Below the pieces are notes generated by a model, which had not been told where the DNA came from, made no database searches, and saw nothing but the letters and a program-made list of their open reading frames with translations. Below are positions 3,631-63,646 of a stretch of 64,000 nt of DNA, in pieces. A program made the position numbers and the translations under genes. The DNA is taken from positions 1 through 64,000 of the forward strand of contig NZ_NFLL01000014.1 of assembly GCF_002160895.1 (NCBI RefSeq), read 5' to 3'. How positions within the stretch are numbered: position 1 is the first letter of the stretch; each line of letters begins with the position of its first letter. Source of the DNA: Faecalibacterium sp. An122 (GTDB lineage Bacteria > Bacillota > Clostridia > Oscillospirales > Ruminococcaceae).

Positions 3631-3674
3631 GCGGCCCGGACGAGAATTGAAAACTGGAAAGCAGATGAATCACT

Positions 3675-4700: not shown

Positions 4701-5317
4701 TGACGGTAGCCATCACAGGCCGCAGCGGCTGCGGCAAATCCACCGTGACCGAATGTTTTGTGGCCCGGGGCATCCCCACTGTGGACGCCGACCAGCTGTC
4801 CCGCCAGATCCTGCAGCCCGGCTCGCCGGTGCTGGAGAAGCTGGCGGCACGGTTCGGGCCGGATATCCTGGAGGATGGGGTGCTCAACCGCCGCCTGCTG
4901 GCGGACCGGGCTTTCGCCACCCCCGAGGGCAAACAGGCCCTGGACGCCATCACCCATCCCGCCATTGTAGAGGGGATTCAGGCGGCGGGCCGGGCGGCCC
5001 GTCAGGCCGGCAGCCCCCTCTTTGTCATCGACGGGGCGGTGCTGGTGGGCAGCGCCCTGGATGGGGCGTGGGACCGCCTGGTGGTGGTGGCCGCCCCCTA
5101 TGAGACCAGCGTCCAGCGGATTGTCCTGCGGGACGGCATCCGGCCCGAAATGGCCCGGCGCCGCCTGGACGCCCAGCTGCCCGAGGCCCGGCTGCGGGCC
5201 CGGGCGGACGTGGTGCTGGAAAACGACGGCACCCGGGACCAGCTGCGCCAAAAGGCCGAGGCCCTGGTGGACCAGCTGCTGGCCCAGGCAAAGGGAGGTG
5301 CGGTTGAGAGGATTTGA
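4697..5317 (+). CDS. coaE: Dephospho-CoA kinase
   Basis: A 206-residue P-loop kinase that phosphorylates dephospho-CoA, the last step of coenzyme A synthesis. The Walker A motif GRSGCGKST is at residues 8-16, and DADQLSRQI, HPAIVEGI and the lid region RIVLRDGIRPEMARRRLDAQ are typical of CoaE. It overlaps ywlC by four bases and its stop lies just before the transglycosylase start. An alternative start is the next ATG at 4700. Confidence 0.93.
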   Translation: MMTVAITGRSGCGKSTVTECFVARGIPTVDADQLSRQILQPGSPVLEKLAARFGPDILEDGVLNRRLLADRAFATPEGKQALDAITHPAIVEGIQAAGRAARQAGSPLFVIDGAVLVGSALDGAWDRLVVVAAPYETSVQRIVLRDGIRPEMARRRLDAQLPEARLRARADVVLENDGTRDQLRQKAEALVDQLLAQAKGGAVERI

Positions 5318-5947: not shown

Positions 5948-7351
5948 ATGAAAGAACTGACCGAAATGCAGAAGAAGGCCAAAGAGCTTCTGTATGAGCC
6001 CGAGTACAAGTCGGACAAGGACGCCGCTGTGCGCCAGGCTGCCGCAGACTTTGCCGAGGGCTACAAGGATTTCATCACCCGCTGCAAGACCGAGCGGGAG
6101 GTAGCCGTCTACGCTGAGAAGGCCCTGCAGGACGCCGGCTATCAGCTGTTTGACGACCGCAAGAAGTACAACCCCGGCGACAAGGTCTATTGGATCCACC
6201 ACAAGAAGGTGGTTCTGTGCGCCACCATCGGCACCCGCTCCCTGGAGGACGGCTTCCGCCTGATGATCGCCCACATCGACAGCCCCCGCCTGGACATCCG
6301 TCCCAACCCCCTGTATGAGGCTGCCCACTTCAGCTACTTCAAGACCCACTACTACGGCGGCATCCGCAAGTATCAGTGGGCCACCATGCCCCTGGCCATC
6401 CATGGCGTGCTGACCCGCGCCGACGGCAGCTCGGTCACCGTCCAGGTGGGCGAGGACGTGGGGGATCCCGCTTTCTGCATCACCGACCTGCTGCCCCACC
6501 TGAGCGCCGAGCAGAACAAGCGTGAGCTGTCCGACGGCATCCGCGGCGAGGAGCTGAACATCCTGATTGGTTCCGACGCCGTGGCCGACGAGGACATCAA
6601 GGAGAAGGTCAAGCTCAGCACCATGATGCTGCTGAACGAGAAGTACGGCATCACCGAGAAGGACTTCACCCGCGCCGAGCTGGAGATCGTCCCCGCCACC
6701 CCCGCCCGCGACATCGGCTTTGACCGGTCCATGATCGGCGGCTACGGCCAGGATGACCGCGTGGACGCATACCCCGCCCTGATGGCCGAGATCGAGGTCA
6801 AGAACCCCGCCTACACCACCGTCTGCGTCCTGGCAGACAAGGAGGAGATCGGCAGCTACGGCATCACCGGCATGGGCAGCGCCTTCACCTATGACTGGCT
6901 GCGCCAGCTGTGCGCCTGCCAGGGCGCCGACTCCATCCGCGCCTTCCGCAGCAGCCTGTGCCTGTCGGCGGACGTCACCGCCGCCTATGACCCCACCTGG
7001 GCCAGCGCATTCGAGCCCCAGAACGGCACCTATGCAGGCCGCGGCGTGGCCTTCTTCAAGTACACCGGCAGCCGCGGCAAGAGCGCTGCCAACGACGCCA
7101 CCGCCGAGCAGATGGGCTACCTGACCCGTATGCTGGATGAGGCCGGCGTGGCATGGCAGGTGGGCGAGCTGGGCCGCATCGACCTGGGCGGCGGCGGCAC
7201 CGTGGCCACCGAGGTGGCCCGCTACGGCATCCCCGTGGTGGACATCGGCGTGCCGGTGCTGTCCATGCACTCTCCCTTCGAGGTGGTCAGCAAGACCGAC
7301 CTGTACATGGCTTACCGTGCGTTCAGCACCTTTGCAGCCGCGAAGGAGTAA
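5948..7351 (+). CDS. M18 family aminopeptidase
   Basis: A 467-residue cytoplasmic zinc aminopeptidase of family M18 (aspartyl aminopeptidase/aminopeptidase I group), which removes N-terminal residues from peptides. Metal-binding segments are visible: IAHIDSPRLD (H109, D111), GGYGQDDRVDAY, ADKEEIGSYG and LSMHSPFEVV near the end. The ATG at 5948 has a GAGG ribosome site in AACGAGG; the longer frame includes residues from the preceding gene's end. Codon use is strongly biased toward C-ending codons, unlike its neighbours, which suggests high expression. Confidence 0.93.
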   Translation: MKELTEMQKKAKELLYEPEYKSDKDAAVRQAAADFAEGYKDFITRCKTEREVAVYAEKALQDAGYQLFDDRKKYNPGDKVYWIHHKKVVLCATIGTRSLEDGFRLMIAHIDSPRLDIRPNPLYEAAHFSYFKTHYYGGIRKYQWATMPLAIHGVLTRADGSSVTVQVGEDVGDPAFCITDLLPHLSAEQNKRELSDGIRGEELNILIGSDAVADEDIKEKVKLSTMMLLNEKYGITEKDFTRAELEIVPATPARDIGFDRSMIGGYGQDDRVDAYPALMAEIEVKNPAYTTVCVLADKEEIGSYGITGMGSAFTYDWLRQLCACQGADSIRAFRSSLCLSADVTAAYDPTWASAFEPQNGTYAGRGVAFFKYTGSRGKSAANDATAEQMGYLTRMLDEAGVAWQVGELGRIDLGGGGTVATEVARYGIPVVDIGVPVLSMHSPFEVVSKTDLYMAYRAFSTFAAAKE

Positions 7352-52781: not shown

Positions 52782-54215
52782 ATGTCAAGAAAGTTTATTT
52801 CCCGCCGCTCGTTCCTGAAGTGCGCCGGCCTGGGCGCCGCCGCCATGACCGCCGGCCTGCTGGCCGGCTGCGGCTCCTCGGACAGCACCGCTTCCAGCGC
52901 CTCGGTTTCCGGCTCCTCGACGGCTCCCGCTGATCCCACCAAGCCCTATGCCGGCGTCACCCTGTACTACGCCGCATCGGACACCGAGGCCACCGGCCCT
53001 GAGATGAAGATGATCGTGGAGATGGTCAAGGAGAAGACCGGCATCGACATCCAGTTCAGCATCATCCCCAAGGCCGACACCGGCGAGGTGGACAAGCGCC
53101 TGGTCAGCCTGCAGGCCGGCGACGAGCTGGACATCATCTACGGCACCACCGCACAGCTGAAGGTGTTCTATGACGCCGGCGTCCTGTCCTCTCTGGACGA
53201 GGTGGCCAGCGCCGAGGGCTACGACATCAAGGGCGTGTTCGGCGACAGCGCTCCCGTCTACGACGACGGCCTGGTCTACGGCCTGCCCGCCTTCACCGAC
53301 GTGTGGTGCACCTACATCAACACCAAGGTCTTTGAGAACGCCGGCGTGGAGATCCCCTCCGCCGAGGGCTGGACCTGGGAGAAGTACATCGAGACCGCCC
53401 AGAAGCTGACCAACCTGGACGAGGAGATCTACGGCTCTCTGATGCTGGACTACGACTGCTACAACTACATGTACGCCCTGCAGAACGGCGCCGAGCACTA
53501 CAAGGCCGACGGCACCGCCAACTACGACGACGTCCGCTTCCGCGACAGCGTCGAGTTCTTCTACAGCCTGGGCAACGAGCTGAAGATCCAGCCCGACATC
53601 ACCACCTATAAGGCCGGCGTCTACCCCTGGAACGCCTTTGCTTCCACCGGCGTGGCCAACGCCTCCGGCAGCTACGACAAGGCTCAGTTTGGTATGTTCG
53701 TCTGCGGCAGCTGGGCCGCCTCCCTGCTGACCGACAGCGAGAAGTACCCCCGCGACTGGAAGTGCGCCATCCTGCCCATGCCCTACCCCGAGGGACAGGA
53801 ACCCTCCACCCTCACCGTGCCCGGCTGCTACGCTGTGCCCAGCACCAGCAAGAACAAGGAGGCCGCTTTTGAGGCCATCCGCTGCATCGCCGAGAACCAG
53901 TACACCCTGGGCCAGGGCCGCGTTCCCGCCCGTGTCGACCTGACCGACGAGGAGATCACCAGCTACATCGAGAACGACCTGGCTCCCAACTACGCCAACG
54001 ACGGCATCACCGCCGACCAGTTCAAGGCAGCCTGGTTCGCCAGCGACCGCAAGGTGCTGTCCGAGAAGATCGTGGGCACCGCCGACACCACCATCAGCCA
54101 GATCTGGGTGTCGGAGGCTCCGCTGTACGGCATGGGCCAGCAGGACCTGGATACCACCATGAAGAACATCCAGGACCGCTCCAACGAGGCCATCAAAGAG
54201 GCTGAGCTGTACTGA
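52782..54215 (+). CDS. Sugar-binding lipoprotein of a CUT1 ABC transporter
   Basis: A 477-residue family 1 extracellular binding protein. The signal MSRKFISRRSFLKCAGLGAA has a textbook twin-arginine motif (SRRSFLK) and then a lipobox with C30 (LLAGC). It should bind an oligosaccharide and deliver it to the two permeases downstream. Codons are strongly C-biased, as in other highly expressed genes here. First gene of the YesMN-controlled operon. Confidence 0.92.
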   Translation: MSRKFISRRSFLKCAGLGAAAMTAGLLAGCGSSDSTASSASVSGSSTAPADPTKPYAGVTLYYAASDTEATGPEMKMIVEMVKEKTGIDIQFSIIPKADTGEVDKRLVSLQAGDELDIIYGTTAQLKVFYDAGVLSSLDEVASAEGYDIKGVFGDSAPVYDDGLVYGLPAFTDVWCTYINTKVFENAGVEIPSAEGWTWEKYIETAQKLTNLDEEIYGSLMLDYDCYNYMYALQNGAEHYKADGTANYDDVRFRDSVEFFYSLGNELKIQPDITTYKAGVYPWNAFASTGVANASGSYDKAQFGMFVCGSWAASLLTDSEKYPRDWKCAILPMPYPEGQEPSTLTVPGCYAVPSTSKNKEAAFEAIRCIAENQYTLGQGRVPARVDLTDEEITSYIENDLAPNYANDGITADQFKAAWFASDRKVLSEKIVGTADTTISQIWVSEAPLYGMGQQDLDTTMKNIQDRSNEAIKEAELY

Positions 54216-54290
54216 GTCTTTCCCTGAACGTCATTTTCACGCCGCCGCCCCTGCAAGCGGCGGCATTTTTTGAGAAAAGGAGGAACCATC

Positions 54291-55205
54291 ATGCCCCTTT
54301 CCACTAAAGTCAAGGCGAAGAAAAGCGCAGCCTCCAAGAGCGAAGCGCTCCAGGGCTACCTGTTTGTGACGCCGTATCTGATCGCATTCACCATCTTCAC
54401 CGGCATCCCCTTTGTTTCGGCCTTTGTGCTGTCCATGCTGGACGTCAAGTTCATCACCAAGCTGGACAACGTCCACTTTGTGGGCCTGAAGAACTTTGTC
54501 CGCTTCTTCTCCAGCAAGGAAGCCATGGCGGCCCTGGGCCGGTCGGGTCTGTACACCCTGATCTATGTGCCGGTTATCATGATCCTGAGCTTTATCCTGG
54601 CCTACCTGCTGAACAAGGGCGTGTTCTGGGCCAAGGGCATCCGCTCCATGTTCTTCCTGCCCTACGTCTCCAACATGGTGGCCGTCGCCGTCGTGTTCCA
54701 ACTGATTCTGGGACCCCGCGGCCCCTTCTACCTGCTGCAGAAGTTCTTTGGGGTGGAGGACCCCATCATCCCGCTGCTGAACCAGAAATGGGCCCTGCCG
54801 GCGGTGGTGCTCATCGCCGTGTGGAAGGGCATCGGCCTGAACTTCCTGACCTATCTGGGCGCGCTGCAGAACGTGGATAAATCCCAGATCGAGGCCGCCG
54901 AGATCGACGGCGCCAACAAGTGGCAGCAGATCCGCAACGTGGTGATCCCGTCGGTGGCGCCCACCACCTTCTTCCTGACCATCAGCTCCATCATCACCAG
55001 CCTGCAGAACTTTACCGTCATCCAGTCCCTGACCGACGGCGGCCCCGGCCAGGCAACCACCGTCATGAGCCTGAACATCGTCAACACCGCTTTCGTGAAG
55101 TATGAGACCAGCTACGCCGCCGCCCAGGCCCTGGTGATGTTCGCCATCGTCATGGTCATCACCCTGATCCAGTGGCGCGGCCAGAAGAAGTGGGCTGACC
55201 AGTAA
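54291..55205 (+). CDS. Carbohydrate ABC transporter permease (UgpA/MsmF type)
   Basis: A 304-residue CUT1 permease with six membrane segments; EAA loop IEAAEIDGANKWQQIRNVVIPSVAP; QSLTDGGPGQATTVMSLNIVNTAFVKYETSYAAA is typical of the UgpA/MalF-like partner. ATG 54291 follows GGAGG; the frame extending upstream starts within that site. Confidence 0.92.
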   Translation: MPLSTKVKAKKSAASKSEALQGYLFVTPYLIAFTIFTGIPFVSAFVLSMLDVKFITKLDNVHFVGLKNFVRFFSSKEAMAALGRSGLYTLIYVPVIMILSFILAYLLNKGVFWAKGIRSMFFLPYVSNMVAVAVVFQLILGPRGPFYLLQKFFGVEDPIIPLLNQKWALPAVVLIAVWKGIGLNFLTYLGALQNVDKSQIEAAEIDGANKWQQIRNVVIPSVAPTTFFLTISSIITSLQNFTVIQSLTDGGPGQATTVMSLNIVNTAFVKYETSYAAAQALVMFAIVMVITLIQWRGQKKWADQ

Positions 55206-55219
55206 GGAGGTATCCCGCC

Positions 55220-56056
55220 ATGCGTGCAAAGAAAGAGCATATCCTCAAGATCGTCATCACCGTCATCATGGTGCTGCTGGGTATCTGCTGCATCTATCCC
55301 TTCGTCTTCATGCTGTCGTCGTCCTTCAAACCCAGCGGCGACGTCCTGTCCACCCCGCTGCAGATCATCCCCAAGAACTTCACCCTGATGAACTTCAAGA
55401 CCCTGTTCAAGAACGAGTTCTACGATTTCTTCCGCTGGTTCGGCAACACCGTTGTCATGACCGGCCTGACCCTGATCCTCAAGTTTTTCATCATCACCAT
55501 CACGGCCTACGGCTTCGCCAAAATCAAGTTCCCCGGCCGTGACGCCATCTTCCTGGTGCTGCTGGCCGGTCTGATGATCCCCAGCGACATCATGATCATG
55601 CCCCGGTACATCATCTTCAAGGAACTGCACATCCTGAACACCATGTGGTCCCTGATCCTGCCCGCGGCGGTGGACGTCTACTTTGTGTTCCTGCTGCGCC
55701 AGGCCTTTGTGGCGGTGCCCGAGGCCCTGAGCGAGGCCGCCCGCATCGACGGATGCAACCACTTCACCATCTATCGCCGGATCATCCTGCCCCTGTGCAT
55801 GCCTCAGGTGGCCACCATGCTGCTGTTCAGCTTTGTCTGGAGCTGGAACGACTACATGAGCCCCTACCTGTACATTTCCGACATCAACAAGCAGATGATC
55901 TCGGTCGGTATCAAACTGCTGGCCTCCGGCCTGGCCCAGGACTACGGCGCCCAGATGGCCGGCGCCACCCTGGTTCTGGTGCCCGTCATCATTGCCTTCT
56001 TCCTGTGCCAGAAGTACTTCGTCGAGGGCATCACCGCCGGCGCCGTCAAGGGTTAA
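55220..56056 (+). CDS. Carbohydrate ABC transporter permease (UgpE/MsmG type)
   Basis: A 278-residue CUT1 permease, partner of the upstream permease. Six membrane segments, EAA loop LSEAARIDGCNHFTIYRRIILPLCMPQ, and the usual C-terminal QKYFVEGITAGAVKG. No ATPase gene follows, so a shared ATPase is needed here too. Confidence 0.92.
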   Translation: MRAKKEHILKIVITVIMVLLGICCIYPFVFMLSSSFKPSGDVLSTPLQIIPKNFTLMNFKTLFKNEFYDFFRWFGNTVVMTGLTLILKFFIITITAYGFAKIKFPGRDAIFLVLLAGLMIPSDIMIMPRYIIFKELHILNTMWSLILPAAVDVYFVFLLRQAFVAVPEALSEAARIDGCNHFTIYRRIILPLCMPQVATMLLFSFVWSWNDYMSPYLYISDINKQMISVGIKLLASGLAQDYGAQMAGATLVLVPVIIAFFLCQKYFVEGITAGAVKG

Positions 56057-56074
56057 GTCGAGGAGTCGAGAAAA

Positions 56075-57034
56075 ATGAAAGACCGCGCGCTTTTGCCTGA
56101 GGCCGGGCAGTTTTACAAGGCCAATCTTCACTGTCATACCGTCCTGTCGGACGGACGCTGGACCAAAGAGCAGGTGAAGGCAGAGTATCAGAAGCGGGGC
56201 TATTCGGTGGTTGCGTTCACCGACCACCGCCATTATGGCTGGCATCCCGAGCTGATGGATGAGACCTTCATCCCGCTGGCGGCCTATGAGGCCGACCTGA
56301 ATGAGCCGTTCCCGCCGTCGGGAGACTTTCAGCGGGTGCGGACCTATCACCTGAACTTCTACGATACCCACCCCGAAACCCGCACCGGCTTTGAGGCCCA
56401 GCAGCCGCCCCAGCGCTATGGCGACCTGGCGGCCCTGAACGAGTTCCTGGCCGGGAAGGAAGCGGAAGGCTTCCTGTGCTGCTACAACCACCCCTACTGG
56501 TCGCTGCAGAACTGGCAGGACTATAAGGATCTGGACCACGTGTTCGCCATGGAGATCTACAACCACGGCTGCGAGCTGGACGGCCTGTACGGCTATGCGC
56601 CCCAGGCCTACGATGAGATGCTGCGGACCGGCCGGCGGCTGTTCTGCCTGTCCACCGACGACAACCACAACGTCTATGAGCCGGGGGACCCCCGGTGCGA
56701 CGCCTTCGGCGGGTTCACCATGCTCAAGCTGCCCCGCCTGGGCTATGCCGAGGTGATCGAGGCCCTGCGGCAGGGGAACTTCTACGCCTCCACCGGCCCG
56801 GAAATCCATCACCTGGTGATCCGGAACGGCGCGCTGGAAGTGTCCTGCAGCCCGGTGGAGAAGATTTATGTGGTGACCAGCGGCCGCCGCTGCCTGATGG
56901 AACTGGCGGCCCCGGGCCAGACCCTGACCGGGGCGGCATTCCCCCTGCGGGGCGATGAGGAGTACATCCGGGTGGAATGCCGGGATGCCTCGGGCCGCCG
57001 CGCCTATTCCAACGCCTATTGGCTGGACGACTGA
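56075..57034 (+). CDS. PHP domain protein
   Basis: A 319-residue PHP-fold protein, a metal-dependent phosphoesterase fold. Metal ligands are visible in KANLHCHTVLSDG (H19, H21), VVAFTDHRHYG, YNHPYW, MEIYNHGCE and LSTDDNHNVYEP. The C-terminal about 60 residues form an extra beta-rich region. PHP proteins hydrolyse phosphate esters; some related ones sit in polysaccharide loci with unknown role. No signal peptide. It lies 18 bases after the permease gene, inside the operon. Confidence 0.85.
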   Translation: MKDRALLPEAGQFYKANLHCHTVLSDGRWTKEQVKAEYQKRGYSVVAFTDHRHYGWHPELMDETFIPLAAYEADLNEPFPPSGDFQRVRTYHLNFYDTHPETRTGFEAQQPPQRYGDLAALNEFLAGKEAEGFLCCYNHPYWSLQNWQDYKDLDHVFAMEIYNHGCELDGLYGYAPQAYDEMLRTGRRLFCLSTDDNHNVYEPGDPRCDAFGGFTMLKLPRLGYAEVIEALRQGNFYASTGPEIHHLVIRNGALEVSCSPVEKIYVVTSGRRCLMELAAPGQTLTGAAFPLRGDEEYIRVECRDASGRRAYSNAYWLDD

Positions 57035-57049
57035 GAGGAGCTTTTGAGG

Positions 57050-58192
57050 ATGGACCGGATGGATCTCTTTGCATCGGCCCTGCGGTCCGCCGCAGAGCAG
57101 GTGAAGTGCAACATCACCCAGTTTGGGGAGGATTTCCCGCTGCCCTGCACCGAAAACGGGGTGTACCCCGTGGGCATCAATACCGACTGGACCCCCGGCC
57201 TGTTCACCGGCCAGTGCTGGCTGGCCTATGAGGCCACCGGGGACGACCGCTTCCGGGCGGCGGCCCTGCGCCAGGTGGACAGCTTTGCCCGGCGGCTGGC
57301 AGTGGGGGAGAACCTGGATCACCATGACCTGGGCTTCCTCTACACCCCCTCCTGCGTGGCCGCCTGGCAGCTGACCGGCAGCGAAACCGGCCGCCAGGCC
57401 GCCCTGGAGGCAGCCCAGCGGCTGACCAAACGGTTCCAGCCGGTGGGCCAGTTCATCCAGGCCTGGGGCCGCTGCGGCGACCCGGCGGAATACCGCCTCA
57501 TCATCGACTGCCTGATGAATATGCCCCTGCTGTGGTGGGCGGGCCGCGAGACGGGAGATGACCGCTATACCGGGATGGCCCGGACCCATACTGCCACCGC
57601 CGCCCGGACCCTGTTCCGCCCCGATGGCTCCACCAGCCACACCTGCTATATGGACCCCGAGACCGGCGCGCCGGTGCGGGCCATGACCGCCCAGGGCTAT
57701 AAGGCCGACAGCGCCTGGGCCCGGGGCCAGGCCTGGGGCATCCTGGGCATGGCGCTGGCCTACCGCTTCACCGGCGAGGCAGAGTATCTGGACCGGTTCC
57801 GGGCCTGCGCCCGGTTCTTCCTCCAGCGCCTGCCGGAGGACGGCGTACCCTATTGGGATCTGGTCTTTACCCAGGGGGAGGAGCCCCGGGATTCCTCGGC
57901 GGCCGCCATTGCGGCCTGCGGCATCTATAAGGCCCTGCCCCATCTGACCCCGGAGGAACAGGCAGAACTGGGGGAGGCGGCAGACCGCCTGCTGCTGGCT
58001 TTGGCCCGGCACTGTGCCGCCGGCGCATCCCGCCCGGGCGGCGGCGTGCTGCTCCACGGCGTCTACTGCAAGTCCAGCCCCTACAATACCGTCAAGGATT
58101 ACGGCATTGACGAGGCCAACCTCTGGGGCGACTACTTCTACATGGAGGCCCTGACCCGGCGGACCCGCGGCTGGCAGCCGTATTGGGCATGA
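57050..58192 (+). CDS. GH88 unsaturated glucuronyl hydrolase
   Basis: A 380-residue GH88 enzyme with an (alpha/alpha)6 barrel that removes the unsaturated uronic acid left at the non-reducing end by polysaccharide lyases. Signature segments: GQCWLAYEATGDDRF, ENLDHHDLGFLYTPS (candidate catalytic Asp residues), DSAWARGQAWGILGMALAYR, PRDSSAAAIAACGIY and EANLWGDYFYMEALTR. No signal peptide, so it acts in the cytoplasm. ATG 57050 lies nine bases after GAGAGGAG. It overlaps the MFS gene by four bases. Confidence 0.9.
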   Translation: MDRMDLFASALRSAAEQVKCNITQFGEDFPLPCTENGVYPVGINTDWTPGLFTGQCWLAYEATGDDRFRAAALRQVDSFARRLAVGENLDHHDLGFLYTPSCVAAWQLTGSETGRQAALEAAQRLTKRFQPVGQFIQAWGRCGDPAEYRLIIDCLMNMPLLWWAGRETGDDRYTGMARTHTATAARTLFRPDGSTSHTCYMDPETGAPVRAMTAQGYKADSAWARGQAWGILGMALAYRFTGEAEYLDRFRACARFFLQRLPEDGVPYWDLVFTQGEEPRDSSAAAIAACGIYKALPHLTPEEQAELGEAADRLLLALARHCAAGASRPGGGVLLHGVYCKSSPYNTVKDYGIDEANLWGDYFYMEALTRRTRGWQPYWA

Positions 58193-59466
58193 GGAAGGGG
58201 ACCTTTGCCCGCCTGGAAACCAGACAGCAGGGCCGGCGTCTGTTCCTGCTCAGCTGGACGGCCTATGCGGCTGCTTATGTGGGCCGGTACAACTATTCCG
58301 CCGTCATGGCGGCCATCACTGCCGAGGGAGTTCTCAGCCTCCCGGCGGCGGGGGCTGTGTCCACCGGATATTTTGTCTGCTACGCCGTGGGGCAGGTGCT
58401 CTGCGGTCTGCTGAGCCAGAGGGTTTCGCCCTTTGGGATGATTCCGGCGGGACTGCTGCTTTCGGCGGGATGCAATATGGGAATGGGCATGGCTCCGGCT
58501 GGGGCCATGCCCATCTTGTGGGCGGCCAACGGTTTGTTTCAGGCCATGGTCTGGCCGCCCATCGTCCGGCTGTTCGCTGAATGTATGCCCCTGGTGCAGC
58601 AAGACCAGGCCTGCGTCTCCATCAACTCCACCACCCCGGCGGGAACCCTGGCGGCCTATGCCCTCAGCGCGGCGGCCATGGCCCTGGCTGGATGGCGGAT
58701 GGCGTTCTGGGGATGCGGCGCGGTGATGCTGGCGGCTGCGGTGCTGTGGATGCTGGGCACGCCCTCTCTGCGCCGGGCGGTTCAGTCCGGTCCGGCCGCA
58801 GCCCCCGTCCCGGCGGCGGAAAAAGAGCCCTCGGGGGTTCGGCTGCTGCCTGTCCTTGCGGGGGCCGGACTGATGGGCCTGATTCTGCCCGCCATGCTCC
58901 ACGGCGGCCTCAAGGACGGGGTCACCAGCTGGGTCCCCAGCATGATCCAGAGCAATTTCGGGGTGGGCCCCGCCTTTGCGGCGGCCGTTTCGATGGCATT
59001 GCCTCTGGTGAACCTCACCGGAGCCTATGGCGCCGGCTGGCTGGACCGCTGCGTCTTCCGCAACGAGGTGAAAACCTCGGCGGCTCTGTTCGCCGGGGCG
59101 CTGGTCTGCCTGCTGGCTCTGCCGGCGGCGGTAAAATACAGCCTGCCTCTGTCGGTGGCGCTGCTGGCGGCCACCACCGCCCTGATGCTGGGCATCAATA
59201 CTATGTTTATCAACGTCATGCCGGTGCGGGCGGGCCGCCGCGCAGGGGCCGCATTCCTGTCCGGCAGTCTCAATGCCATCACCTACCTGGGGGCGGCCAT
59301 TGCCACATGGGGGATCGGCGCAGCGGCCCAGGGTTTTGGCTGGGGCGCCGTGCTGGCCCTGTGGGCGGTGATGGCGGGGACGGCCCTGGCCGTCTGCCTG
59401 CTGCTTGCCCGCCGCTGGGGCCGGTTTGCCCTGGCCTGTGAGACCGAAAGGGGAGAACGCGTATGA
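58189..59466 (+). CDS. MFS transporter
   Basis: A 425-residue major facilitator protein with about twelve membrane segments. The first segment YAAYVGRYNYSAVMAAI recalls the OPA/GlpT-UhpT and hexuronate-type branch, where an R/N pair in helix I binds an anionic substrate. A uronic acid or uronate product is a reasonable cargo given the flanking GH88 and lyase genes. Coupled by four-base overlaps to both neighbours. Confidence 0.85.
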   Translation: MRKGTFARLETRQQGRRLFLLSWTAYAAAYVGRYNYSAVMAAITAEGVLSLPAAGAVSTGYFVCYAVGQVLCGLLSQRVSPFGMIPAGLLLSAGCNMGMGMAPAGAMPILWAANGLFQAMVWPPIVRLFAECMPLVQQDQACVSINSTTPAGTLAAYALSAAAMALAGWRMAFWGCGAVMLAAAVLWMLGTPSLRRAVQSGPAAAPVPAAEKEPSGVRLLPVLAGAGLMGLILPAMLHGGLKDGVTSWVPSMIQSNFGVGPAFAAAVSMALPLVNLTGAYGAGWLDRCVFRNEVKTSAALFAGALVCLLALPAAVKYSLPLSVALLAATTALMLGINTMFINVMPVRAGRRAGAAFLSGSLNAITYLGAAIATWGIGAAAQGFGWGAVLALWAVMAGTALAVCLLLARRWGRFALACETERGERV

Positions 59467-61391
59467 TCCTATGGGCTGAAAACGAGACCGCCGCCACGGC
59501 GCGGGCGGTGCGGAACCTTTGCCCCGGCGCCGCCGCGGCAGCCATTGCCCGGGCGGATGAAATCTGCCGGCGGGAGTTTCTGTTTCAGGATCACTGGGAG
59601 ATGGAACCCACCTGCCAGCCGGTCCGCTTTCCCGATGGGATGGTGTGGGACGCCGTCCCCGCAGGGGACCCCGAGTGGACCTATGCCCTCAACCGCCACA
59701 CCATCTTTGTGAATCTGGGCAAGGCCTGGCTGTATACCGGCCGGCCCCTTTACCGGGATACCTTTGTGTTTTTGCTAGAGGACTGGCTGCGGCAGGTGCC
59801 CCACACCCCCGCCAGCGAGTCCACCACCTGGCGTGCCCTGGAGGCGGGCCTGCGGCCGGAGAACTGGCTGCGCGCCTTCTGCCTGTTCCGGGGAGCTGTT
59901 CCCGAGAGCCTGCGGGCTCAGGCCGACGAGAGCCTGGCCCGCCACGGGGCGTATCTGGCATCGGCCCATGGACCGTTTCAGAAACTGAGCAACTGGGGGG
60001 CCATCCAGGCCCACGGCCTGTTCCTGATCGGCCTGTGGCTGGGCCGCAAGGACTGGCAGCAGCTGGCTCTGGATCGTCTGGCGGAAAATCTCCGCCGCGC
60101 CGTCCTGCCCGACGGCGTCCAGTGGGAACAGAGCCCCATGTATCACTGTGAGGTGCTCCATACCGTTCTGGACACCCTGCTGCTGGCAAAACAGAACGAT
60201 ATCCCCACGCCGCCCATCCTGGAAGAAAAGGCCCGGGCCATGTGCCGGGCTCTGGCGGTGTGGGCCGCTCCCGATCGCACCATCCTGCCCCAGGGGGACA
60301 GCGACGTCATCGACGCCGGGGACCTGCTGGCGGCGGGCGCCCTGCTGTGGGAGGACCCCCTGCTGGCAGCGGCGGCCCGGGGCCCCTTGTGTGAGGAAAC
60401 CCTGTGGGACTTCGGCCCCGACGCCGCCGCGCGGCTGGCCGCCCGGCCGGCCGCCTGGCCCGAATGCCCCTCCCAGAAGCTGGAAGCCAGCGGCAACTAT
60501 ATGCTGCGCAGCGGCTGGCAGCCGGAGGATACCTTCATCCATCTGCGGGCCGGACGCCTGGGCGGCGGCCACGGCCATGGAGATTTGCTGCATCTGGACG
60601 TGTGGCATGGGGGCGAGGCGGTGCTGGTGGACCCCGGCCGCCTGACCTATGTGGATGGCCCCCGGTGCCAGGCGCTGAAGAGCCCCGCCGCCCACAATAC
60701 CCTCCGGCTGGATGAAACCGACTTCACCCAGTACCGCGCCACCTGGGAGTGGGAGAACATCGCCCAGCCCCTGCCGGCCCGGGCCCATTTTGACCCGGCG
60801 GCGGATTACCTGTTCGCAGGGCATGGGGGATACCTGTCCCGGGGAGCTTTGGTGGAACGGCGTCTGGTCTTTCTCAAGCCGGACCTTCTGGTGGGGGCGG
60901 ATCTCATCCGCAGCGCAGGCGGCCACCAGGCGGAAGCTTACTTCCACTTCGGACAGGGAACCCTGACCCTCAATCCGCGCAGTGTTTTCTGGAAGGGCAG
61001 CCGCACCTGTGCCCAGCTCCACTGGCTCAGCGGCCAGACGGGCTGTGCCTTTGAATCCCCCCGCGCCCCGGTGTACAACACCCTCTGCACCGGGCCGTCC
61101 CTCCGGCTGACGGCCTCCACCAGCGGCACAACGGCGCTGGTGTGGGTGCTGAGCCTGGGCGGCCCCTGCGACGCCCGGCTTGTGCCGGTGACCGACGGGG
61201 CAGGGAAGCCCATTGCCTCCCGCCTGGCCCAGGGAGTCCGGGTGGACAAAGACGGTCAGAGCCGGACGGTACTGTTCAGCTGGCAGGCAGGCCCCCACGA
61301 GGCGGGACTGCTGTGCGCCGACGGCTGCACAGGCTATGGAACGGTTCTCGCCTTTACCCCCCAGTGCCCCGAAGGGCTGTATCTGGACTGA
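59463..61391 (+). CDS. Heparinase II/III-family polysaccharide lyase
   Basis: A 642-residue protein with the two-part layout of heparinase II/III-like lyases: an alpha/alpha toroid (about 40-330; WRALEAGLRPENWLRAF, QKLSNWGAIQAHGLFLIGLWLG, VQWEQSPMYHCEVLHT) and a beta-sandwich domain (about 345-640; GRLGGGHGHGDLLHLDVWHGGEAVLVDPGR, AAHNTLRLDE). Tyr and His in SPMYHCEV and the HGHGD histidines are candidate catalytic residues. No signal peptide, so it should cut imported oligouronides, feeding GH88. Substrate (glycosaminoglycan, alginate-like or other uronide) is open. Confidence 0.88.
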   Translation: MILWAENETAATARAVRNLCPGAAAAAIARADEICRREFLFQDHWEMEPTCQPVRFPDGMVWDAVPAGDPEWTYALNRHTIFVNLGKAWLYTGRPLYRDTFVFLLEDWLRQVPHTPASESTTWRALEAGLRPENWLRAFCLFRGAVPESLRAQADESLARHGAYLASAHGPFQKLSNWGAIQAHGLFLIGLWLGRKDWQQLALDRLAENLRRAVLPDGVQWEQSPMYHCEVLHTVLDTLLLAKQNDIPTPPILEEKARAMCRALAVWAAPDRTILPQGDSDVIDAGDLLAAGALLWEDPLLAAAARGPLCEETLWDFGPDAAARLAARPAAWPECPSQKLEASGNYMLRSGWQPEDTFIHLRAGRLGGGHGHGDLLHLDVWHGGEAVLVDPGRLTYVDGPRCQALKSPAAHNTLRLDETDFTQYRATWEWENIAQPLPARAHFDPAADYLFAGHGGYLSRGALVERRLVFLKPDLLVGADLIRSAGGHQAEAYFHFGQGTLTLNPRSVFWKGSRTCAQLHWLSGQTGCAFESPRAPVYNTLCTGPSLRLTASTSGTTALVWVLSLGGPCDARLVPVTDGAGKPIASRLAQGVRVDKDGQSRTVLFSWQAGPHEAGLLCADGCTGYGTVLAFTPQCPEGLYLD

Positions 61392-61419: not shown

Positions 61420-63600
61420 ATGATGGACGAAAAACGCACCGGCCGGGTCACCATACCCACCGATCTGGACGCCGTACCCGAGACCCTGACCCTGATGCAG
61501 CGCTGGGGTGCCGACGCCATCCGGGACTGTGACGGCACCGAGTTCCCCGAGGCCCTGCGCAATACCGGGGCCAAGGTGTACGCCACCTACTACACCACCC
61601 GCAAGGACAACGCATGGGCCAAGGCCAACCCCGACGAGATCCAGCAGTGCTATATCATGACCCCCTTCTTCACCGCCGACGGTGAGGGCGCGCTGCAGAT
61701 TCCCCTGATGAAGGGGATCAGCCGGGAGCTGCTGCAGGTCAACGACCGGGACGACATCGCCCGCTGGTGGGAAGTCATGGACCGCACCACCGGCCAGCCC
61801 CTGCCCGCCGGCGCATGGAGCTATGACGCGGACAAGGAAGCGGTGGTGATTTCCGCCCCCGCCGCCTATCATGAGTATACCGTCAGCTTCCTGGCCTACC
61901 TGATCTGGGACCCCGTCCATATGTACAATTCGGTCATCAACGGCTGGACCGATGTGGAGCACCAGATCCCCTTTGACGTCCGCCAGCCCAAGACCCATCA
62001 GTATACCCTGGAGCGCCTGCGCCGCTTCCTAGAGAGCCATCCCTATGTGGACGTGGTGCGGTTCACCACCTTCTTCCACCTGTTCACCCTGGTGTTCGAT
62101 GAGCTGCGCCGGGAAAAATACGTGGACTGGTACGGCTATTCCGCTTCGGTCAGCCCCTATATCCTGGAACAGTTTGAGAAGGAAGTGGGCTACAAATTCC
62201 GCCCCGAGTACATCATCGACCAGGGCTATTACAACAACCAGTACCGCGTCCCCAGCAAAGAGTTCAAGGACTTCCAGGCCTTCCAGCAGCGGGAGGTCAA
62301 CCGTCTGGTGCGGGAGATGACCGACATCGTCCACGAATACGGCAAGGAAGCCATGATGTTCCTGGGAGACCACTGGATCGGCACCGAACCCTTCGGCCCG
62401 GTCTTTGCCCAGTCGGGCGTGGACGCCATCGTGGGCAGCGTGGGCAATGGCTCCACCCTGCGGCTGATTTCGGATATTCCCGGCGTCAAGTACACCGAGG
62501 GCCGGTTCCTGCCTTATTTCTTCCCCGATACCTTCCATGAGGGGGGCGACCCCATCCGGGAGGCCAAGGAGAACTGGGTCACCGCCCGCCGCGCCATCCT
62601 GCGCAAGCCCATCGACCGCGTCCACCAGCTGACCGAGCTGTGCACCCGCTACGGGGAACTGTTCTGTGTCTGGATGGACGGAGCCTGCGGCGAGGGCCCC
62701 AACGGCAAACGGCAGGTCTACGACTGGCCCCGGTACTATGAGACGGTGCGCCGGCTCCAGCCGGGCGCAGTGCTCAGCGTGTGCGGGCCGGATGTCCGAT
62801 GGTGCGGCAACGAGGCGGGACACTGCCGCCCCAGCGAATGGAGCGTGGTGCCCGCCCAGCTGATGGATGCCGCCTATACCGCCGGCCGCTCCCAGCAGGC
62901 CGACGACGGTACTTTCTCCCGCCGGGTGAACCGGCAGGACGAGGACCTGGGCAGCCGGGACGTCATTGCCGCGGCCGGGGAACTGGCCTGGTACCCCGCC
63001 GAGGTGGATACCTCCGTCCGGCCGGGCTGGTTCTACCATCCCGAGGAGGACAGCCAGGTGCGCACCCCCGAGGAACTGCTGGACATCTACCTGGATGCGG
63101 TGGGGGGCAATGCGGCTTTGCTGCTGAATGTGCCGCCCGCCCCCAATGGGCGGATCGCCCCTCCCGACTGCGCCGCCCTGGCTGGGCTGGGCCGGAAGAT
63201 TCAGAACCTGTTTGCGCTGGACCGCACCGGTCTGGGAGAGCTCAGCGCCCCGGGCAGTGCCGAAGGCAACCCGCTCGCCTGCGCCGCCGATGGCCGCAGC
63301 GATACCTGGTGGCAGAGTGCCCCCGGCGAAGGGCAGCCCACCCTGACCCTCACCTTTGCCCAGCCCCAGGAGATCTCCTGCGTGGTGCTGGGGGAGTACC
63401 TGCCCGCCGGCCAGCACATCGAGGCCGGTGAAATCCGGGCCGACGGCCGGACGGTGGCCGGCTTCACGGTGGTGGGCCACAAGCGGATCTGCCGCTTTGC
63501 GCCCGTCCGGGCGAAACAGGTGACCGTCTGTATCACAGCATCCCGGGCCGAACCCGCCCTGCGCCTGCTGGTGGTGTATCGGGAACAACAAGCCGAATAA
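61420..63600 (+). CDS. In-frame GH112-GH29 chimera (both enzymes truncated)
   Basis: A 726-residue protein made of two partial enzymes. Residues 1-400 are the N-terminal barrel of a GH112 galactosyl-N-acetylhexosamine phosphorylase (TGRVTIPTDLDAVPETL, WYGYSASVSPYILEQFE, catalytic acid near D317 in FLGDHWIGTEPFG, VTARRAILRKPIDR). From about 401 on it is the C-terminal part of a GH29 alpha-L-fucosidase (LTELCTRYGELFCVWMDGACGEGPNG, DVRWCGNEAGHCRPSEWSVVP, DLGSRDVI, WYPAEVDTSVRPGWFYHPEED) plus a C-terminal discoidin-like beta-sandwich. GH112 loses its last about 320 residues and GH29 its first barrel strands; neither should be fully active. The junction lies near 62612-62625. ATG 61420 follows AAAGGA. 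Confidence 0.85.
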   Translation: MMDEKRTGRVTIPTDLDAVPETLTLMQRWGADAIRDCDGTEFPEALRNTGAKVYATYYTTRKDNAWAKANPDEIQQCYIMTPFFTADGEGALQIPLMKGISRELLQVNDRDDIARWWEVMDRTTGQPLPAGAWSYDADKEAVVISAPAAYHEYTVSFLAYLIWDPVHMYNSVINGWTDVEHQIPFDVRQPKTHQYTLERLRRFLESHPYVDVVRFTTFFHLFTLVFDELRREKYVDWYGYSASVSPYILEQFEKEVGYKFRPEYIIDQGYYNNQYRVPSKEFKDFQAFQQREVNRLVREMTDIVHEYGKEAMMFLGDHWIGTEPFGPVFAQSGVDAIVGSVGNGSTLRLISDIPGVKYTEGRFLPYFFPDTFHEGGDPIREAKENWVTARRAILRKPIDRVHQLTELCTRYGELFCVWMDGACGEGPNGKRQVYDWPRYYETVRRLQPGAVLSVCGPDVRWCGNEAGHCRPSEWSVVPAQLMDAAYTAGRSQQADDGTFSRRVNRQDEDLGSRDVIAAAGELAWYPAEVDTSVRPGWFYHPEEDSQVRTPEELLDIYLDAVGGNAALLLNVPPAPNGRIAPPDCAALAGLGRKIQNLFALDRTGLGELSAPGSAEGNPLACAADGRSDTWWQSAPGEGQPTLTLTFAQPQEISCVVLGEYLPAGQHIEAGEIRADGRTVAGFTVVGHKRICRFAPVRAKQVTVCITASRAEPALRLLVVYREQQAE

Positions 63601-63611
63601 ACCCAAAACCA

Positions 63612-63646
63612 ACGCCGGGGAACAATTTGTTCCCCGGCGTATTTGT
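63612..63646 (+). terminator. Terminator of the glycan operon
   Basis: ACGCCGGGGAACAA (63612-63625) pairs perfectly with TTGTTCCCCGGCGT (63627-63640), followed by ATTTG. Confidence 0.8.

Follow-up and report, generated by a model that had tools for sequence, protein, structure and literature searches.

The window, namely the whole 64,000-nucleotide stretch of Faecalibacterium sp. An122 DNA that was analysed, is part of a 70,390-base contig (C6) of the 3.26-Mb draft genome (hereafter G000; 80 contigs, 99.91% complete), and carries a forward-strand operon whose last gene is a fusion of sequences from two glycoside hydrolase families, GH112 and GH29. The operon encodes, in order, a solute-binding protein, two permeases, a CehA/McbA-like metallohydrolase, a GH88/105-like protein and an MFS transporter (52782–59466), then a heparinase II/III-like protein (59463–61391; 642 aa, and 645 aa in the congeneric genome G011), in whose gene no stop or frameshift was detected, and finally the fused frame (61420–63600). 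This frame begins with the ATG at 61420, with an alternative ATG at 61423, and ends with the stop codon at 63598–63600, giving a product of 726 aa, and it is open already upstream of the ATG. A ribosome-binding-like AAAGGA lies immediately 5′ of ATG 61420, and a terminator-like hairpin with a 13-bp stem (63612–63640, forward strand) is placed directly 3′ of the stop codon. In the surrounding operon, the GH88/105-like gene (57044–58192) is absent from the DNA alignments of three other genomes carrying this locus (G007, G025 and G004), which continue from the preceding gene into the following one, and by these alignments it was either gained in the window lineage or lost in those three. A second, distant heparinase-like gene, approximately 35% identical, is located elsewhere in G000 (C45:120002–121612).

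The initial annotation described an open frame running unbroken from GH112 into GH29 sequence with the switch at residue 400, counted from ATG 61420, and both points were confirmed by the open frame itself and by the profile and structure matches. On the Pfam level, PF09508 (the GH112 barrel; E 5.5e-193, profile positions 1–393 of 434) is directly followed by PF01120 (GH29; E 1.2e-10, profile positions 193–338 of 345). Among solved structures, the front of the fusion resembles the lacto-N-biose phosphorylase 3wfz (E 2e-135) and the back resembles the alpha-1,3/4-fucosidase 3ues from its residue 153 on (E 1.9e-96), the two matches meeting at residue 404 of the structure-search query; by these values, the resemblance of both halves is too strong to be attributed to chance. 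The GH112 part spans 61420–62619 (approximately 400 residues), and the GH29 part spans 62620–63597 (approximately 320 residues, corresponding to the G011 fucosidase from about residue 155 onwards). They join at an Arg codon (62617–62619) and a Val codon (62620–62622), in the DNA CGC|GTC with the break at 62619/62620, and this R|V join matches the switch described at residue 400.

What the product retains and what it lacks can be read against the characterized enzymes of the two families, on which excerpts of PMC8106489 and PMC8395109 give background. The first 397 residues of the fusion align throughout with the Bifidobacterium longum galacto-N-biose/lacto-N-biose phosphorylase (2zus/3wfz) and keep all invariant sites; however, unlike that enzyme, the GH112 part ends 41 profile positions short of the complete barrel and has neither the central (PF17385) nor the C-terminal (PF17386) domain, so that the complete three-domain architecture of the family is missing. 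Its score against the NCBIfam equivalog TIGR02336 is 556.7 bits, slightly below the cut-off of 560.3, whereas the one further GH112 of G000, an intact 721-aa protein encoded on another contig (C34), scores 968.2 and possesses PF09508, PF17385 and PF17386. The catalytic acid of the GH112 part, the Asp with its codon at 62368, which we take to be the counterpart of D313 of the B. longum enzyme, is retained together with the invariant barrel residues.

For the GH29 part, the last approximately 320 residues align with the B. infantis alpha-1,3/4-fucosidase AfcB (3ues/3mo4), including the beta-sandwich and both catalytic residues, Asp and Glu, but everything before about residue 153 of AfcB, namely barrel strands 1–3, is absent. 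According to excerpts of PMC8106489, D172 is the nucleophile and E217 the acid/base of AfcB, and in the alignment both are retained in the fusion (codons at 62677 and 62836, respectively). The model of the intact G011 GH29 places the cut inside helix 148–164, between strands 3 and 4, which leaves strands 4–8 and the C-terminal beta-sandwich in place of a complete (beta/alpha)8 barrel, and 36 conserved GH29 sites fall in the lost segment. Hence the losses proposed in the initial annotation, the C-terminal domains on the GH112 side and the N-terminal barrel strands on the GH29 side, were both borne out, with the end of the GH112 barrel missing as well. Both catalytic pairs are encoded in the fusion, yet neither active site is complete, and the product is likely inactive or unstable. 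The fold model of the fusion reached a mean pLDDT of 60.9 and a pTM of 0.40, with each half covered by just 6 to 8 other alignment rows; residues ~340–580 are mostly below pLDDT 60, whereas in the beta-sandwich, from about residue 590 on, values above 75 prevail. The model of the intact G011 GH29 reached 89.7 and 0.90, although the two do not make a fair pair and the poor fusion model carries little weight, given the thin alignment behind it.

The relative G011 shows the likely ancestral arrangement. At the same operon position as the fusion, one contig of this genome carries the MFS transporter gene, the heparinase-like gene, a GH112 gene (724 aa) and a GH29 gene (475 aa), the last two both intact, overlapping by 19 bases and lying in different reading frames. 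The DNA alignment of the window with G011 proceeds at 78% identity up to G011 position 3643 and resumes at 5071 with 79%, while the window advances by only 6 bases; approximately 1.42 kb are therefore missing between 62619 and 62620 relative to G011. The ends of this segment fall inside both genes with the frame preserved, and it corresponds to about 325 GH112 codons and 154 GH29 codons. G007 has this GH112 too, truncated where its contig stops, and a different contig of G007 begins with the end of a GH112 gene followed by an intact GH29; this is consistent with an intact tandem ancestor, though less complete than the evidence of G011. Thus, the intact tandem pair that the initial annotation had suggested looking for in close relatives is present in G011, and its first proposal, an in-frame deletion joining tandem genes, is supported.

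The genome sets and contig loci covered here contained no such fusion besides that of the window's own genome. Within the genus, 24 of 31 genomes (G000 included) had a match, and within the family 89 of 396, in many of which just two first-look candidates were scored; in these two overlapping genome sets, only G000 spans both halves. Among the best 80 of at least 593 confirmed loci in a scan of GTDB contigs, a collection that may omit the window's own genome, none matches beyond query residue 469. The joined DNA had no match when viral contigs were scanned, and literature searches found no paper on such a GH112-GH29 fusion. Relatives sharing the full-length fused protein, which would have marked a stable family, were thus looked for in the genus, family and GTDB-contig searches and none was seen, and the idea of a stable fused family was rejected on this ground.

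Both halves have remained conserved. Against 113 further GH112 sequences, the GH112 half shows no change at any of 67 invariant sites; against 18 further GH29 sequences, the same holds for all 47 invariant sites of the GH29 half. Branch dN/dS values, all of which rest on the NG86 method, were 0.138, 0.100 and 0.139 for the GH112 half on the G000, G011 and G007 branches, 0.230, 0.220 and 0.472 for the GH29 half, and 0.300, 0.209 and 0.342 for the heparinase-like gene used as a control; by NG86 and in comparison with G011 and G007, no clear rise was found on the G000 branch. By these estimates the G000 branch as a whole was under constraint, which could mean either that the deletion occurred late on this branch or that the hybrid is still constrained, a late deletion being the simpler option. 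As the invariant sites are unchanged and dN/dS shows no clear rise, the deletion looks recent.

In the tree, the GH112 half groups with the copies of G004, G007, G011 and G025 (support 0.995), apart from the genus-wide GH112 copy, and this group is adjoined by the copy of Gemmiger formicilis ATCC 27749 (L044; support 0.977, with four outside sequences only), which suggests that the locus was acquired by horizontal transfer from a related genus. Two of the four other genomes with this locus, G004 and G025, show lesions in it. In G004 (L037 on C47 and L038 on C28), several deletions, two of them frameshifting, affect the heparinase-like, GH112 and GH29 genes between unbroken flanks: the heparinase-like gene has a frameshifting deletion and is joined to GH112 at about residue 127, GH112 is shortened and GH29 is broken. 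The end of this shortened GH112 is 98% identical over 227 bases to the other GH112 copy (L037 3′ end, L038 start and L007), and the GH112 copies share 127 identical bases at contig ends; because of these near-identical ends, the lesions in this region of G004 may involve gene conversion or a chimeric assembly. In G025 (L036 on C13), a frameshift lies near the end of the heparinase-like gene (~6452–6640), and the frame continues into GH112. Both genomes resemble metagenome bins, and assembly errors may account for part of their lesions.

Based on these findings, we propose that the fused frame very probably goes back to an in-frame deletion that occurred recently in a decaying operon, leaving a product that is probably inactive and costing the strain this fucosidase. 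A single illegitimate deletion of approximately 1.42 kb, that is, one not driven by homology, would have taken the back of GH112 together with the front of the overlapping GH29 downstream. Since GH112 and GH29 lie in different frames in G011, preservation of the reading frame would have been a chance outcome of about 1 in 3. As anatomy and synteny show, the operon now ends in a single hybrid frame equipped with a start signal and a terminator, and the product, having lost the parts described above, would most likely be misfolded or inactive for both reactions; with GH29 strands 1–3, conserved residues of the fucose pocket are missing too. Chimeric frames created by deletion between neighbouring genes are a known outcome of genome decay, and the present case shares with them the intact tandem pair in a relative, the one deletion and the kept frame; nothing essential differs except the two families involved.

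The alternative that the strain possesses both genes intact and that the assembly joined them wrongly is improbable, though it deserves consideration, as the draft assembly is split into 80 contigs, the contigs of the related bins G007, G004 and G025 end inside GH112, and the fusion occurs in no other genome searched. However, the join lies within the 70-kb contig and the frame is kept across it. In G011 and G007, homology in the join region is limited to scattered bases, and near the G011 breakpoints (60 bases to either side) no shared word exceeds 11 bases, the longest being out of register, so that no repeat of a size to mislead an assembly is present at the join in G011; recombination via a repeat at the join was rejected for want of a long shared word as well. 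The assembly also yielded no second location for the lost segment: its GH29 front turned up on none of the other contigs, and for its GH112 back the sole match is the intact second copy. Taken together, the lack of a long shared word at the join and of the GH29 front anywhere in the assembly lead us to favour a real deletion over an assembly error.

It is very unlikely, in agreement with the lower rank given to this idea in the initial annotation, that the fusion functions as a hybrid enzyme or a binding protein under selection for fucosylated glycans of the lacto-N-biose type. The retained GH112 catalytic Asp and GH29 nucleophile and acid/base, the lack of decay in either half and the confidently predicted C-terminal beta-sandwich speak for it; continued selection on the hybrid would likewise be compatible with the unchanged invariant sites and the normal dN/dS, and its frame, start and terminator are all intact. 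Nevertheless, both barrels are incomplete, the barrel parts are poorly predicted, the equivalog score falls short of its cut-off, and the protein is confined to one genome among those searched. A folded and working hybrid would demonstrate that a single step suffices to connect two unrelated catalytic barrels mid-barrel. The most specific form of this idea, a selected new phosphorylase-fucosidase hybrid barrel in which GH29 elements complete the GH112 barrel, the protein binding or cleaving fucosylated type-1 or core-1 glycans, is likewise very unlikely.

Under the favoured deletion, the consequences for the strain would be unequal for the two activities. Judging from gene content, phosphorolysis of lacto-N-biose/galacto-N-biose would be kept through the intact GH112 on the other contig, whereas a search of the whole assembly found no other GH29 in G000, so that the only GH29 found in the genome would have been lost with the deletion; the locus as a whole appears to be decaying in this clade. 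An automatic annotation pipeline could enter the fused frame under the phosphorylases, the fucosidases or both, and caution is required here, as the working complement of the strain is probably a single GH112 and no GH29. The fused frame of G000 would thus represent a clear case, dated by constraint, of the loss of tandem glycan genes in Faecalibacterium.
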